Assembly (NCBI RefSeq): GCF_030816475.1
Contig: NZ_JAUSXF010000001.1
Span: 3,286,001 to 3,350,000, forward strand
Source: Arthrobacter pascens
GTDB taxonomy: Bacteria; Actinomycetota; Actinomycetes; Actinomycetales; Micrococcaceae
Direction of reading: 5' to 3'
DNA: 64,000 bases
Shown: positions 38,318-43,531 of the stretch, piece after piece
Layout: each line of letters opens with the position of its first letter
How positions within the stretch are numbered: position 1 is the first letter of the stretch
The notes under the pieces: model-generated
Databases searched by the model: none
What the model saw: only the letters and a program-made list of their open reading frames with translations
What the model was told of the DNA's origin: nothing
Made by a program: the position numbers and the translations under genes

Positions 38318-38410
38318 TCAGGGCCGGTCACCTGCCTCGGGCACAACCAGGACTGGTCGCCCATGTTGGTGGATCAGGGACGCGGACACAGATCCTTTCA
38401 GGAACCGCCC
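38318..38410 (-). pseudogene. C-terminal remnant of a universal stress protein (UspA) gene
   Basis: On the minus strand, in the same frame as the ArsC-like gene but beyond its stop, the codons read GRFLKGSVSASLIHQHGRPV, then LVVPEAGDRP and TGA. The G-x2-x-GSVS...HxxxPVLVVP pattern is the C-terminal nucleotide-binding end of UspA proteins. No start and no N-terminal domain are present, so this is the tail of a truncated gene. Confidence 0.62.
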
Positions 38411-38437
38411 TGCGGCAAAGGCCCAGGGCAGGAAGGG

Positions 38438-38857
38438 CTATCGCCTGGTGAGCTCTGTGTAGAGCGCCTCGACCCGGGCTTTGATGTCATCCCGGACAAG
38501 GCGCATTCGCTCCATGCCCTCGATTCCGCGCTCCGACGGCTCGTCCGTTTCCCAGACCTCAAAGCGGGTCCCTTCGCGCGGTTCAAGCTTCGCTTCGGTT
38601 CCCAGGACGACGACGGCATCGACGGTGTCGAGGATGTCGTCAGTGACCGGTTTGGGATACTCGCCGGTGACGTCCACGCCAAGTTCGGTCAGGGACTCCA
38701 CTGCCTGGGGGTTCAGCGCATTGCCCGGTTTAGTGCCTGCGGAATAGACAGCAATGGCGTCCCCCGCCAGATCACGCATCAGTCCGGCGGCCAGTTGGGA
38801 TTTGCCGCCGTTCTTGCTGCAGACGAACAGTATGGAAGGAGTCTTTTGGTGGGTCAT
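38438..38857 (-). CDS. ArsC-like low-molecular-weight phosphatase family protein with CX5K loop
   Basis: Protein of 139 residues with the low-molecular-weight phosphatase/arsenate reductase fold. The active loop reads CSKNGGKSQ, with Cys13 kept but Lys19 where the family has an invariant Arg (CX5R). The acidic loop near 100-112 (ETDEPSERGIEG) is retained. It is the last full gene of the leftward arsenic cluster, 27 bases after the flavoprotein gene. It may be an arsenate-mycothiol transferase variant or have another oxyanion as substrate. Confidence 0.83.
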   Translation of the reverse strand: MTHQKTPSILFVCSKNGGKSQLAAGLMRDLAGDAIAVYSAGTKPGNALNPQAVESLTELGVDVTGEYPKPVTDDILDTVDAVVVLGTEAKLEPREGTRFEVWETDEPSERGIEGMERMRLVRDDIKARVEALYTELTRR

Positions 38858-38884
38858 GAGTGGGTTGTTTCCTTTGCTAGGGAG

Positions 38885-40276
38885 TTAGTTGTTTATCCCG
38901 GAGCGGCCGTGGACCAGACCGGTCGGGAAGCCGATCAGCACCAGTTCCGGCGCCGCGCAGCAACCGGAATCCGTAGAGGTGGAGTCCTCCGCGCCCGATG
39001 CCGTGACGGGGACATCGCAGCTGGTGCCGGCGTCGGTGGAGCAGACCCCTGTTTCGGGGAGCTCGAGGTGGACGGTGTCAGCTGATTCCTGGTCGCCTGC
39101 GAGTGCTGCGGCTACGGAGCGGACCTGCTCGTAACCGATGGCCAGCAGGAAAGTGGGGGCACGCCCGTAGGACTTCATGCCCACAATGTAGAAGTCCTTG
39201 TCCGGGTGGGCGAGGAGCTTGGCGCCGTGCGGCGGGACGGTGCCGCAGGAGTGGAATTCGGGGTCGATCAGAGGGCCCAGTTCCGTCGGCGCTTCGACGG
39301 CGGGGTCCAGGTTGAGCCGAAGCTCGCGCAGGATGCCCAGATCGGGCCGGAATCCCGTGCAGGGCACCACGATGTCAGCCTCGAGGATGCGGCCGTCCAC
39401 AGCTCCCACAGTGACGGATGAGTCCAGGGATTTGATTGAGCTGATGCCAAAGCCGGTGTGCAGTTCTATCTTTCCGGCCTCCACAAGCCGGCGGACCCGG
39501 CCTCCGAGCTGGCCCCGGGCCGGCAGCCCGTCGAGGTCTCCTCCGCCGTAGACCTTCGCGGCCGAGTCGCCCCTAACAGCCCACAGAATCCGGGTGTCCG
39601 GCTCGTCCCAGGCGAGGTCAGCGAGGTTGATCAGGGTGTTGGCGGCGGAGTGCCCGGCACCAGCCACCAAGACCCGGCGGCCGGCAAACGACGCGCGGTC
39701 ACGGCCCGTGACGTCAGGCAGCGGCACGGAGATCCGGCCCTCTGCTGCATCTTCGCCGATGGCGGGAAGGCCCGAGGTTCCCAGCGGGTTCCGGGTGAAC
39801 CATGTGCCGGAGGCGTCGATAACTGCCGCGACGGTGTGGTCCCGGGTTCCGCCGTCGGCATGTACTACCCGGACTTCGAAAGGTGTGTTTTCCCGATCCC
39901 GGACGTGGGTCTTGTCCAGGCCCTGACGGGTGACGCCGGTGACCCGGGAGCCGGCCTGCAGACGCGACGAGATCTGGGGAAGTGCAGCCAGGGGTGCGAG
40001 GTAGCTGTCGATCAGCTCCCCTCCATAGGGCAGGGCAGTGGGCCGTGGCGCTTCCCAGCCGGTTGCTTCCAGGAGGCGGACGGCGGCGGCATCGAGGTTG
40101 AACCGCCAAGGTGAGAACAAGCGGATGTGGCGCCATTGCTCAATGGCCGCCCCGGCAGCAGTGCCGGCTTCGAAGATCAGCGGTTCCAGGCCCCGTTCGA
40201 GCAGGTGGGCCGCGGCAGCCAGGCCGACCGGACCGGCGCCGATGACTGCGACCGGGAGGGTCTTCGCTGGCTCCAC
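38885..40276 (-). CDS. FAD/NAD(P)-dependent oxidoreductase of the arsenic cluster (ArsO-like)
   Basis: About 463 residues. It has an N-terminal FAD-binding GAGPVGLAAAAHLLERG, an NADP-binding GAGHSAANTLINLADL in the middle, and the flavin monooxygenase-like ATGxR-region equivalents. Flavoproteins of this class in arsenic operons are called ArsO, with an unsettled biochemical role. The C-terminal 50 residues are unusual: Ser/Thr-rich with GVCSTDAGTSC and TDSGCC, which may bind metal or act in thiol exchange. The GTG at 40276 has AAAGAGGAC upstream; an ATG at 40291 is possible. A large inverted repeat and a Cys-rich small ORF precede it. Confidence 0.83.
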   Translation of the reverse strand: MEPAKTLPVAVIGAGPVGLAAAAHLLERGLEPLIFEAGTAAGAAIEQWRHIRLFSPWRFNLDAAAVRLLEATGWEAPRPTALPYGGELIDSYLAPLAALPQISSRLQAGSRVTGVTRQGLDKTHVRDRENTPFEVRVVHADGGTRDHTVAAVIDASGTWFTRNPLGTSGLPAIGEDAAEGRISVPLPDVTGRDRASFAGRRVLVAGAGHSAANTLINLADLAWDEPDTRILWAVRGDSAAKVYGGGDLDGLPARGQLGGRVRRLVEAGKIELHTGFGISSIKSLDSSVTVGAVDGRILEADIVVPCTGFRPDLGILRELRLNLDPAVEAPTELGPLIDPEFHSCGTVPPHGAKLLAHPDKDFYIVGMKSYGRAPTFLLAIGYEQVRSVAAALAGDQESADTVHLELPETGVCSTDAGTSCDVPVTASGAEDSTSTDSGCCAAPELVLIGFPTGLVHGRSGINN

Positions 40277-40321
40277 GGTGTCCTCTTTCATCCGTCGTGG
40301 TGGTGCGTTAAGACTTACTTC

Positions 40322-40387
40322 CCCAACTAGGTAGCAGCAGATGTCGTTTTGAGCGGGCAAAACCACATCTGCTGCTACCTAGTTGGG
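40322..40387. repeat. 66-bp near-perfect inverted repeat
   Basis: Two identical 23-base arms (40322-40344 and 40365-40387) are perfectly complementary. After one mismatch, GTTTT/AAAAC extends the stem, leaving an 8-base loop. It lies inside the leftward arsenic operon, between the small Cys-rich ORF and the flavoprotein gene. It has no U-tract. It could be an RNA processing or stability hairpin, an attenuator, or one copy of a dispersed palindromic element. Confidence 0.85.
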
Positions 40388-40397
40388 CGAAAGTGGG

Positions 40398-40460
40398 TCA
40401 GCAGCAATCCAGATCGTCGTCGTCACAGCAACCGGAGTCGCTGCAGCATCCGTTCCTCAT
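40398..40460 (-). CDS. 20-residue Cys-rich acidic peptide in the arsenic cluster
   Basis: A complete ORF starting at ATG 40460 and ending at TGA 40398-40400 encodes MRNGCCSDSGCCDDDDLDCC. Six of 20 residues are Cys, all in three CC pairs, and six are Asp. A purine-rich ribosome site (GAGGGGAGGGGG) lies about 8-20 bases before the ATG. It starts 28 bases after the trxB stop on the same strand and precedes the ArsO-like gene, whose C-terminal tail also contains DSGCC. Composition and place suggest a thiol metalloid-binding peptide. Coding status is inferred; no expression evidence is available from sequence. Confidence 0.6.
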   Translation of the reverse strand: MRNGCCSDSGCCDDDDLDCC

Positions 40461-40488
40461 CGAGCTCACCCCCTCCCCTCTTCCCGGT

Positions 40489-41466
40489 TTAGGCGTGCGT
40501 GGGTTCTTCCACCAGCGCAGTGGCTATGCTGTCCGCATCGGCCAGGGCGGCCAGGTAGCGTTCTGCATCCAGTGCGGCAGCACACCCGGTTCCCGCCGCC
40601 GTAATCGCCTGGCGGTACCGGTGATCCACGGCGTCCCCGCAGGCAAACACACCGGAAAGATTGGTCACGGTGGTGGGCGAGTCCACCTTGATGTAGCCCT
40701 CGGCGTCCAGGTCTATCTGCCCGGCCACGAGTTCGGTGCGCGGGACATGGCCAATGGCCACGAAGAGGCCGGTGGCCGTGTGCTCGCGGGTCTCGCCGGA
40801 ACGGGTGTCCGTCAGGGTTACCCCGGTGACCTTCCCGTCGCCGTGGATCGCGGTGACGGCGGAGTTCCACGCGAAGCTGATCTTCGGGTTGTCCTTGGCG
40901 CGCTGGGCCATGATGCGGGATGCGCGCAGTTGATCCTTACGCACGACGACGGTCACGGACTTTGCGAACCGGGTCAAGAAGGTGGCTTCCTCCATGGCAG
41001 AGTCACCGCCGCCGACGACGATGATGTCCTGTTCGCGGAAGAAGAAGCCGTCGCAGGTGGCACACCAGGAGACGCCGTGCCCGCTGAGCCTCTTCTCCTC
41101 CGGCAGGCCGAGTTCTTTGTAGGCGGATCCGGTGGCCAGGATGACCGCCGGGGCCTGGTGCGTTTCGCCTGATCCGGTTACCACGATCTTCAGGTGACCT
41201 TTGAGATCAACTGACGTGACGTCGTCGAACACTACCTTGGCGCCGAATTTTTCGGCCTGTTCCTGAAGCCCGTCCATCAGCTCAGGGCCCTGGATTCCGC
41301 CCGGGAAACCGGGGAAGTTTTCCACCTCGGTGGTGTTCATCAGGGCTCCGCCGGCGGTGACAGATCCGGCCAGCACCAGCGGTTCCAGTCCGGCACGCGC
41401 CGCGTAGATGGCTGCGGTATAACCTGCGGGGCCGGATCCGATGATGATCAGCTGTTCGTTGCTCAT
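40489..41466 (-). CDS. trxB: Thioredoxin-disulfide reductase
   Basis: Protein of 325 residues with FAD-binding [17 protein letters not shown], the redox-active CATC (Cys135, Cys138) and NADPH-binding [13 protein letters not shown]. It uses NADPH to reduce thioredoxin or, here, possibly a dedicated partner of the arsenic operon. It starts 24 bases after arsC on the same strand. Since the housekeeping trxB is normally next to trxA and no trxA is seen, this is probably a second, arsenic-dedicated copy. Confidence 0.93.
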
Positions 41467-41490
41467 GGCGCGTTCCTCAGTGGTTTCGGG

Positions 41491-41913
41491 CTACTTGGCG
41501 GCCGGGATCAGCGAGTCGATCAGACCCTCGATGCGGGTCTTGATCTCGTCGCGGATAGGCCGGACCGACTCTACGCCCTTGCCTGCCGGATCCTCCAGGA
41601 CCCAGTCCTCATAACGCTTCCCCGGGAAGTAGGGGCACTCATCGCCACAGCCCATGGTGATCACCACGTCGGACTCCTTCACGGCCTCGGTGGTGAGGAC
41701 CTTTGGAACCTCTGCGGACATGTCGATCCCGACCTCGGCCATAGCCTCGACGGCGGCAGGGTTGATCTTGTCGGCCGGCTGGGAACCTGCCGAGCGGACC
41801 TCGATTTCGCCTTTCGAGAGGGATGTCAGGAACGCCGCGGCCATCTGGGAGCGGCCGGCGTTGTGGACGCAGACGAAGAGGACGGAGGGCTTCTTGGCTG
41901 TTTCGGTGGTCAC
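41491..41913 (-). CDS. arsC: Arsenate reductase (low-molecular-weight phosphatase type, arsenate-mycothiol transferase-like)
   Basis: Protein of 140 residues. The catalytic loop CVHNAGRSQ starts at Cys15 with the invariant Arg21, and EDPAGKGVESVRPIRDEI matches the acidic loop. In mycothiol-containing actinobacteria such enzymes couple arsenate to mycothiol, with mycoredoxin releasing arsenite. The GTG at 41913 has AGGAGAAC upstream. It is the first gene of the leftward unit with trxB and the flavoprotein, and is preceded by an ArsR operator and a sigma70-type promoter. Confidence 0.92.
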   Translation of the reverse strand: MTTETAKKPSVLFVCVHNAGRSQMAAAFLTSLSKGEIEVRSAGSQPADKINPAAVEAMAEVGIDMSAEVPKVLTTEAVKESDVVITMGCGDECPYFPGKRYEDWVLEDPAGKGVESVRPIRDEIKTRIEGLIDSLIPAAK

Positions 41914-42010
41914 GCTGTTCTCCTGGATTCGGTTGGGTTGGGTGGGTACGGTCTGATCTGCGATGACCCTGTGACTCCCAAACCGAACATTGATGATGAT
42001 CGATATAGAG

Positions 42011-42041
42011 AGTATCCGGTCATACATTGATGAATGTCAAT
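42011..42041 (-). promoter_or_regulatory. Promoter and ArsR-type operator of the arsC operon
   Basis: On the minus strand TTGACA (42040-42035) and GATACT (42016-42011) are separated by 18 bases, a good sigma70-type promoter. ATTGA-N6-TCAAT (42026-42041) overlaps the -35. The same dyad, with the same spacing and the shared TG..GTCAAT context, stands before the arsR gene at 43562-43577. This points to regulation by that ArsR. Confidence 0.75.
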
Positions 42042-42070
42042 ATTGTTCTGAATGAAGCTTTCCAAACCGC

Positions 42071-42745
42071 TCAGGCTGCGCTGACACGTGGCGCAAGGTC
42101 GGTAACGCGGTGGGCGATGTCATCAAAGGCCCGATCGAAGGCCTCCTTGGTGCCCAGGCGCAGGGGGTCAGGGATGGACCAGTGGATGCCCGTCATCCCG
42201 CGCAGTTCCTCGTGGGCGTTGTCGCAAACGGTCACGACGAAGTCCGCTTCGTTCGCCACCTCACCCAAGGCTCGGGGCGATATGTTGGGAAGGTCCAGGC
42301 CGTGGCGGCGGGCAGTTTCGATGGCACCAGGGGCGATGCGGTTCGCGGGATGCGTTCCGGCGGAGACTGAGGGGATACTGCTAGCCTGCCCCCAGAGGGC
42401 TGCGGCCAGCTGCGAGCGCGCACTGTTGTGCGTGCAGACAAACAGGACGCGGCGGGCTCCGTGGACAGCTCCCGGCACCAGTCCATCAAGAGCCCCGGCC
42501 GCGAGTCGAAGATAGCTCCGGCGCTTGTCCGCTTCCGAGCGGTGCCGGGTCGCTAGTCCGGCGTCTTCCAGCGTTTTCAGGTGGTGCGAGAGCAAATTGG
42601 AGGACATGCCCAGTTCCGCCTGCAGTTCCGTGGGAGAGAAATCCCCCAGCGTCAGCAGGTCCACGATGCGCAGGCGCGCCGGATCGGCGAGGGCTGCGTG
42701 CCTGGCTACGCGCGCTTGGAAGGTGGAAGCTGCCTCAATATCCAT
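42071..42745 (-). CDS. ArsR-type HTH fused to an arsenate reductase/phosphatase-like domain
   Basis: Protein of 224 residues. A winged-helix ArsR domain fills about residues 8-85 (ALADPARLRIVDLL, SSNLLSHHLKTLEDAGLATRHR). A low-molecular-weight phosphatase/ArsC domain fills about 98-222, with the catalytic loop CTHNSARSQ (Cys104, Arg110). The typical metalloid-binding Cys cluster in the HTH part is absent. ATG 42745 is chosen because a TTGACG-N17-CAAAAT promoter ends seven bases upstream, giving a leaderless start. It diverges from the aquaporin gene. Confidence 0.88.
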   Translation of the reverse strand: MDIEAASTFQARVARHAALADPARLRIVDLLTLGDFSPTELQAELGMSSNLLSHHLKTLEDAGLATRHRSEADKRRSYLRLAAGALDGLVPGAVHGARRVLFVCTHNSARSQLAAALWGQASSIPSVSAGTHPANRIAPGAIETARRHGLDLPNISPRALGEVANEADFVVTVCDNAHEELRGMTGIHWSIPDPLRLGTKEAFDRAFDDIAHRVTDLAPRVSAA

Positions 42746-42752
42746 TGATTCA

Positions 42753-42781
42753 ATTTTGACTGAGGTAATTTCTTGCGTCAA
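42753..42781 (-). promoter_or_regulatory. Leaderless promoter of the ArsR-ArsC fusion gene with overlapping dyads
   Basis: TTGACG (42781-42776) and CAAAAT (42758-42753) lie 17 bases apart, with the ATG seven bases beyond, so the message should begin at or near the start codon. ATTGATTCAAT (42744-42754) is a perfect palindrome over the start, and TTGAC/GTCAA (42756-42781) is a wider dyad. Either could bind the fusion protein and also control the divergent aquaporin. Confidence 0.6.
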
Positions 42782-42790
42782 GCTGGAGGC

Positions 42791-43531
42791 ATGATTTCAG
42801 ACCAGCCGCCCCTGTGGCGCCGAGCCGTCGCTGAACTCCTCGGCACCGGCCTGCTCGTTGCCGTCGTCGTCGGTTCCGGGATTGCCGCCCAACAGCTCTC
42901 CCCGGGCGACGTCGGTCTGCAGCTGTTCGAAAACAGCACCGCAACAGTTCTGGGCCTGACGGTGCTGATCCTGGCGTTCGGTCCGGTCAGCGGCGCCCAT
43001 TTCAACCCGGTCGTTTCGCTGGCCGACTGGTTTTTGGGCCGGCGCAGCGGGTCCGGCCTGACCCTGCCGGATGTCGGCGCCTACGTGACGGCCCAGGTGG
43101 CCGGGGCCATTGGCGGCAGCGTGCTGGCCAACGCAATGTTCGACGTCGGGACGTCCATCTCTGCCAAGGAACGGGCAACGTCGGGGCACCTGCTCGGTGA
43201 GGTCGTCGCGACCGCAGGGCTCATCCTGCTGATCTTCGCCCTCGCGGCTACGAAACGCGGCGCCCTTGCGGCACCCGCAGTAGGCGCCTATATCGGGGCC
43301 GCGTACTGGTTCACGTCCTCAACGGCGTTCGCCAACCCCGCCGTGACCGTCGGCCGCATCTTCAGCGACACCTTCGCCGGTATCGCGCCGGGCTCCGCGC
43401 CCGCCTTCGTCGTCGCCCAGGTGCTCGGTGCCGCCGTCGGCCTGGGCCTGCTGCTTCTGCTGTTCCCCGCTGCTTCCCGCGCTGCGGACGATGTCGTGAT
43501 CCCTCATGCCACCCGGACAACCAGGCCATAG
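42791..43531 (+). CDS. MIP/aquaporin family channel in the arsenic cluster (AqpS-like)
   Basis: Protein of about 246 residues with six helices and the two MIP half-loops: SGAHFNPVVS at about residue 75 (NPV in place of NPA) and FANPAVTVGRI at about 185. In some bacteria a MIP channel replaces the arsenite pump and lets arsenite leave the cell by diffusion after reduction. GGAGG is only one base from the ATG at 42791, so a TTG at 42773 is possible. It diverges from the ArsR-ArsC fusion. Confidence 0.88.
   Translation: MISDQPPLWRRAVAELLGTGLLVAVVVGSGIAAQQLSPGDVGLQLFENSTATVLGLTVLILAFGPVSGAHFNPVVSLADWFLGRRSGSGLTLPDVGAYVTAQVAGAIGGSVLANAMFDVGTSISAKERATSGHLLGEVVATAGLILLIFALAATKRGALAAPAVGAYIGAAYWFTSSTAFANPAVTVGRIFSDTFAGIAPGSAPAFVVAQVLGAAVGLGLLLLLFPAASRAADDVVIPHATRTTRP

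Follow-up and report, generated by a model that had tools for sequence, protein, structure and literature searches.

What is encoded in the short gap between trxB and an ArsO-like gene in the arsenic cluster of Arthrobacter pascens, and what could a peptide of 20 residues with three Cys-Cys pairs do there? A first-pass annotation of the window, by which we mean the whole stretch of 64,000 nucleotides analysed here, had placed a complete small open reading frame (ORF) in this gap, with a good ribosome site and the direction of the operon, but had given no strand. Reading of the sequence bears this out: the ORF lies on the minus strand in the same orientation as trxB and arsO, starts 28 bases past the end of trxB and is preceded by a strong Shine-Dalgarno (SD) sequence. 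The plus strand of 40398-40460 gives a different reading, and the peptide is that of the minus strand only.

Table. Features of the arsenic cluster around the peptide gene (positions in the window)
Feature	Positions	Strand	Basis or remark
Peptide gene, 20 codons, MRNGCCSDSGCCDDDDLDCC, with TGA stop	40398..40460	minus	translation of the window's letters
Shine-Dalgarno sequence GGAGGGGGTGA	40466..40476	minus	5 bases upstream of the peptide ATG
Inverted repeat of 30 bp (66-bp near-perfect palindrome CCCAACTAGGTAGCAGCAG ... CTGCTGCTACCTAGTTGGG)	40322..40387	minus	just downstream of the peptide gene
trxB, thioredoxin-disulfide reductase, upstream neighbour	40489..41466	minus	TIGR01292, 386.9 bits (cut-off 343.45)
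ArsO-like FAD oxidoreductase, Cys tail GVC..SC...DSGCC	38885..40291	minus	NF040505 (ArsO), 55.2 bits, below the cut-off of 425
ArsC-type arsenate reductase (LMWPc domain)	41491..42027	minus	NCBIfam scores below cut-offs
Second low-molecular-weight phosphatase/ArsC-like gene, operon end	38438..38857	minus	domain matches
ArsR-ArsC fusion protein (ArsR and ArsC-type phosphatase domain)	42071..42781	minus	domain matches
MIP family channel, aquaglyceroporin-type, divergent	42773..43531	plus	domain matches
Promoter-like site ahead of arsC	42011..42040	minus	consensus match only

The cluster also contains genes for an ArsR and an ArsN-like acetyltransferase; several of the gene assignments score under the NCBIfam cut-offs. 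The real start of the ArsC-type ORF is probably lower than 42027. The mechanically called arsO ORF (38888-40366) reaches 25 codons further upstream, into the hairpin formed by the inverted repeat; judged by the starts of its relatives, arsO probably begins at 40276-40291 and not at 40366, in which case the extension would be untranslated. Of the two promoter-like sites that a scan of 38400-42900 returned, both on the minus strand, the first precedes arsC and the second lies where the ArsR-ArsC gene starts; none was reported between arsC and the peptide gene. Searches of the window's genome for ACR3, ArsB and ArsD gave zero matches to these three, which leaves room for an intracellular binder.

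The window contains a single ATG-started ORF of 12-35 codons that has three or more CC pairs, the peptide ORF itself, and 60 random 64-kb windows with matching trinucleotide statistics contain none. Because the ORF is conserved in 70 loci, a chance origin is untenable; the random windows and the substitution pattern described below likewise speak against it.

The first-pass annotation had proposed a search of trxB-arsO gaps in ars clusters of the Arthrobacter group for short ORFs with CC pairs. Such ORFs were found, and the final family comprises 70 distinct loci, representing 67 DNA sequences and encoding 61 different peptides. A scan of genome contigs for trxB relatives gave 583 matches, and the best 80 loci were examined: an ArsO-like gene lies directly after trxB in 12 of these 80, and a homologous peptide gene occupies the same place in five of the 12 (L002, L004, L005, L008 and L014). 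With a profile built from the six peptides collected first, matches were obtained in 21 of 395 genomes of the bacterial family; 17 of the 21 hold full-length members (in 18 places, G349 having two), G309 holds a true member that was matched in part (L106), and the remaining three gave chance matches only. Profile matches L107-L109 and L111 were rejected as unrelated reading frames. An improved profile matched 49 of the 206 genomes of the window's genus, and inspection of the places in all 49 revealed the same gene behind arsC or trxB. A search for arsO matched 174 of the 206 genus genomes, and reading upstream of arsO, among the matches listed, uncovered 16 loci in 15 further genomes that the profile had missed. 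With L106 included, at least 65 of the 206 genus genomes carry the peptide gene, and two further members reside on plasmids of Arthrobacter strains (L179, L181). Since the profile missed variants (L106 itself scored merely E 0.06), counts obtained with it are lower bounds.

All members belong to the window's genus or to plasmids of Arthrobacter strains. In profile searches of the order and of the phylum, with 396 genomes in each set and a few of the genus in both, nothing convincing turned up outside the genus, an absence valid only at the sensitivity of the profile. L184, a match nine positions long, was rejected because it runs antisense to an apparent thioredoxin-like gene; an ArsR-like match lies about 1.4 kb from it. 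L185 and L186 were also rejected, neither having shown a short ORF with two CC pairs. Within the family, 67 of 70 members precede arsO, the gene upstream of them being trxB in 43 and an arsC-type gene in 24; the other three (L116, L131, L141) lie in ars clusters without arsO, and a search for arsO at E 1e-60 found no match in G410 and G429, the genomes of two of these three. Among 118 distinct arsO loci inspected, which were partly picked through peptide matches and so do not give an unbiased frequency, 67 have the peptide gene and 51, counting the remnants L177 and L194, lack it. The peptide gene is therefore accessory.

Across the family the start codon is ATG in 70 of 70 loci and the SD motif GG[AGT]GGTG[AG] is conserved in 69, a pattern characteristic of a small-protein gene. 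The Cys pairs are the most conserved feature of the peptide: Cys-Cys stands at its end in all 70 loci, with the stop codon directly after it in 69, and Cys makes up 410 of the 418 letters in the six pair columns of the unfiltered alignment of all 70, a figure that is somewhat circular, membership having been judged partly by Cys. Other residues are conserved as well, among them Asp8 (66/70), Gly10 (63/70) and two Asp near the end (62/69 and 63/69). A test of codon conservation, as the first-pass annotation had suggested, gave pN/pS = 0.43 when all 70 loci (67 of them distinct) were aligned by codon with no residue filter, this and the following ratios being pairwise, without correction for relatedness or a tree. 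In the ungapped codons 2-8, pN/pS is 0.60 in frame versus 0.81 and 2.2 in the shifted frames; in the last four codons it is 0.55 versus 2.34 and 0.51, one shifted frame being equally low, so that frame-specific purifying selection is seen in codons 2-8 and in the full alignment while the last four codons are undecisive. For 53 members filtered by residue pattern, codons 2-12 give 0.44 versus 0.93 and 2.09. Taken together, the reading frame provides moderate evidence for coding. In the same 53 regular members, sequence diversity is high 18 to 30 bases upstream of the start and nearly zero across most of the ribosome site, and the spacer immediately upstream is far more variable than the SD and the ORF. 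Absence of conservation of the ORF or its Cys codons in related clusters, or many broken copies in close relatives, had been named in advance as grounds for abandoning the gene; the ORF and its Cys codons are conserved, although some relatives have lost or broken it.

In composition the peptide is about one-third Cys and one-quarter Asp, acidic and nearly without aromatic residues: over the 61 peptides, Cys accounts for 32% of residues after Met, Tyr for 0.3% and Trp for 0.2%, with no Phe listed. The Cys codons of the family are TGC in 425 cases and TGT in seven, compared with 18 and 6 in eleven nearby ORFs of the window, a preference that may reflect selection for efficient translation, as in a strongly translated gene. 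From the conserved start and ribosome site we infer that the ORF is translated, to an acidic, thiol-rich and probably unstructured peptide.

The number of CC pairs varies, with three in 61 of the 70 peptides, two in seven, four in one and five in one. The changes of module number are in frame: L141 owes its four pairs to an exact second copy of the 18 bases that encode GDSGCC; L106, with five, has repeated TDTGCC units; and L181, with two, has lost the last unit. The spacer between pairs 2 and 3 is of variable length and mostly acidic. Such gain and loss of ligand units is what a binding peptide can tolerate. A single Cys is lost in L101, L105, L139, L142 and L233, and L230 is a divergent variant. 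The idea, drawn from L101 and L105, that loss of trxB is coupled to loss of Cys was discarded: of the 24 peptides that lack an upstream trxB, 21 show no Cys substitution within a pair, L139 being the third exception, and L142 and L233 have trxB yet each lost a Cys. Losses of the gene, identified by eye, comprise apparent deletions (L190, L192), a partial deletion (L226) and a degenerate remnant (L194). In L177 a deletion leaves the peptide gene's initial codons fused to arsO. In L126 (genome G400, at about 1500-1560 of the reversed locus) the stop codon is TGG and the frame continues into ArsO as an open frame of 593 codons, which could be a natural fusion or a sequencing error.

The palindrome that follows the ORF in the window is a genome-wide repeat. 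Its arms have 34 matches with at most two mismatches in the genome, 30 of which form 15 pairs, 14 of these with members 47 bases apart, and it resembles a REP-type element, either mobile or stabilising mRNA. The same repeat also occurs in related Arthrobacter ars loci. Many other loci have a second palindrome type, CTGCCGG...CCGGCAGG, unrelated to that of the window; by loose motifs, the window type is present in 18 of the 70 loci, the second type in 45 and neither in seven. Palindromes also occur at loci lacking the peptide gene (L161, L197, L217, L229, L245), the first three of which have the window's repeat. A scan for T-tailed terminators did not list the inverted repeat, and comparison of the hairpin region with Rfam gave 13 weak matches, mostly to microRNA models and all under the gathering score. 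Because the repeat is genome-wide, and hairpin and peptide are found apart, the hairpin does not belong to the peptide gene; it may nonetheless affect the mRNA. For the same reasons we rejected hairpin and ORF as a single attenuator, and base pairing between CTGCTGC in the ORF and GCAGCAG in the hairpin was rejected in view of the other palindrome at most loci.

ArsO proteins of the genus end in GVCSTDAGTSC...SGCC... and mostly have one CC pair, whether or not the peptide is present. In five peptide-less loci of other lineages, the ArsO tail has three pairs in L016 and L017 and one in L018, L032 and L036. Five tails were read among six ArsO homologues on plasmids and have one to three CC pairs, three in the case of a Hydrogenophaga plasmid. 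C-terminal tails with one to three CC pairs are thus carried by ArsO-like flavoproteins such as those of the window, L016, L017 and L250; the three-pair tails observed belong to loci without the small peptide, other loci without it having one pair.

We hypothesize, with a probability of roughly 0.58, that the peptide is a buffer binding As(III) or Sb(III), akin in its action to the thiol peptides of the phytochelatin or metallothionein kind. Of the functions that the first-pass annotation had put forward, a chelator of these metalloids is the reading best supported by the Cys pairs and the linkage to ars genes, the binding itself being deduced from sequence. Both As(III) and Sb(III) are held tightly by two or three thiolates. 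When the ArsC enzymes, whose genes lie just upstream, release trivalent arsenic or antimony into the cytosol, the peptide would catch it: two thiolates would come from every vicinal Cys pair and the third ligand from neighbouring pairs or from water. It would hold As(III) until the metalloid leaves through a channel or pump or is transferred to a thiol protein, such as the Cys-tailed ArsO. We stress that binding of Cu(I), Cd, Zn or Hg is chemically just as possible, As and Sb being indicated by the operon only, and that a peptide of 20 residues may not persist long in the cell.

Other readings of the same data must be weighed against this metalloid buffer. That the ORF is non-functional and conserved through linkage or TGCTGC repeat dynamics is very improbable: although the operon around it is generally conserved, copies of it have been lost or broken in some loci and the pN/pS of its last four codons is no better than that of one shifted frame, the ratio of 0.43 over all 70 loci, the frame contrast at codons 2-8, the far more variable upstream spacer and the unfailing CC ending all argue otherwise. 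The ORF might instead be a cysteine-sensing leader, in which stalling at TGC-TGC codons would control arsO via the downstream hairpin, as in the mycobacterial polycysteine short ORFs, which Canestrari et al. in 2020 reportedly found to be leaderless and cysteine-responsive. Both are short Cys-rich ORFs in actinobacterial operons, the Cys codons here are clustered, and 60 of 70 loci have a perfect stem of 8 bp or more, located upstream of arsO or in the 110 bases past the ORF; the Bacillus ars1 operon, moreover, is attenuated by an internal ars hairpin (PMC4562236). Unlike the mycobacterial ORFs, however, the peptide gene has its own strong SD and a mid-operon position behind arsC or trxB, and conservation extends beyond Cys codons to Asp, Gly and the acidic spacer. 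No stem of that kind is present in L119, L130, L136, L142 and L168, palindromes stand without the peptide at the five loci named above, one palindrome type being a genome-wide repeat, and the peptide is retained without arsO, so that hairpin and target can each be separated from the ORF. The variation from two to five pairs is also more easily explained by a binder, and we regard a leader function as improbable.

A redox role is unlikely as well, if somewhat less so. Here the vicinal dithiols would be a substrate of, or electron shuttle from, the adjacent thioredoxin reductase, feeding ArsC; dithiols require a reductant, and in 43 of the 67 peptide-bearing arsO loci it is trxB that lies upstream. 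Yet the first-pass annotation's suggestion of a TrxB substrate loses ground because the other 24 have no trxB there and 21 of these retain their Cys pairs; in addition, trxB is present and the peptide absent in 30 inspected loci, the spaced CxxC motif occurs in only two of 70 peptides, and 17-20 residues are insufficient for a thioredoxin fold. Its further suggestion of a chaperone for a particular channel is likewise less supported: the gene is accompanied by a MIP channel in the window and by ACR3 in L002. A partnership with ArsO is possible, if tentative, and compatible with the buffer: the peptide would be a free-standing counterpart of ArsO's CC tail and an As(III) metallochaperone for that flavoenzyme. 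It draws on the position of 67 of 70 copies directly before arsO, on the CC pairs of ArsO tails (three in the peptide-less L016 and L017), on the frame of L126 that enters ArsO and on the first codons fused to ArsO in L177. Clean loss of the tail CC, judged by eye, was seen in five ArsO proteins (L090, L101, L115, L211, L244), all encoded beside the peptide, giving 5/67 with it versus 0/51 without, numbers too few for significance that make a link between tail loss and peptide presence suggestive only. Against a partnership stand the 51 of 118 arsO loci without the peptide and the three peptides without arsO, the single CC pair of most genus tails irrespective of the peptide, as also in L018, L032 and L036, the possible sequencing error in L126 and the putative status of ArsO activity itself. 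That peptide and ArsO are functionally linked is an attractive idea, yet each is found without the other. In its extended form, which we consider possible but well short of probable, the family would consist of genus-restricted modular As(III) carriers of two to five CC units, a detachable form of the ArsO tail that loads ArsO with arsenite.

How would a metalloid buffer of this kind compare with known systems? Phytochelatins are short, acidic, Cys-rich chains with a variable number of thiol units, directed against As(III) and Cd, and the peptide resembles them in these properties. It differs in being ribosomally encoded, with a repeat number set by the gene, and in having vicinal Cys pairs with alpha-Asp in place of gamma-Glu-Cys, phytochelatins being of the form (gamma-Glu-Cys)n-Gly. 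Phytochelatins are Cys-rich peptides produced by an enzyme (PMC9265389). Like the bacterial metallothioneins (SmtA/BmtA, MymT), the peptide has about 30% Cys and scarce aromatic residues; unlike them, it is of 12-30 residues and ars-linked, and comparison of three family members with Pfam and NCBIfam gave no match at E up to 10, short queries having little power. Bacterial metallothioneins are of about 50 residues or more and bind Zn, Cd or Cu. By analogy, the peptide would work like a metallothionein or a phytochelatin; we do not claim membership in either. ArsD, too, has vicinal Cys pairs and is encoded in ars operons, that of Ochrobactrum having 124 residues with Cys12-13 and Cys112-113, and it serves the ArsAB pump, while the ArsR of Acidithiobacillus uses a vicinal Cys pair in its response to trivalent metalloids (both PMC2440759). 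The ArsD fold of about 120 residues (PF06953) is not that of our peptide, which has 20 residues and no Pfam match. In the PDB, the window's peptide had no matching chain at E 1, and in the open-licence literature we found no title or abstract start naming such a peptide.

If it binds, the peptide would to our knowledge be among the shortest gene-encoded metalloid-binding peptides. A 2025 study states that no specific intracellular arsenic sequestration genes have been found within the ars operon (PMC12093948), and the present family is a direct candidate for such a gene. Should the peptide indeed load ArsO, the two would make up a chaperone-enzyme pair for arsenic that differs from ArsD-ArsA, and the ars operon would hold a dedicated gene for sequestering arsenic inside the cell. 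The peptide is short enough for chemical synthesis, and its natural variation from two to five pairs offers a ready structure-affinity series.

The suspicion that gene finders had overlooked the gene is supported: in five annotated plasmid records with the peptide gene, a CDS for it is absent in 5 of 5, the gene tables of PLSDB being incomplete. Genes of about 20 codons can thus escape annotation inside well-studied operons. In plasmid pTC2 of Paenarthrobacter aurescens TC1 (CP000476.1; L182, 3361-3423), the arsO-like CDS ABM10838.1, annotated as 'putative Secreted protein', begins inside the peptide gene in another frame, and its annotated start is probably wrong.
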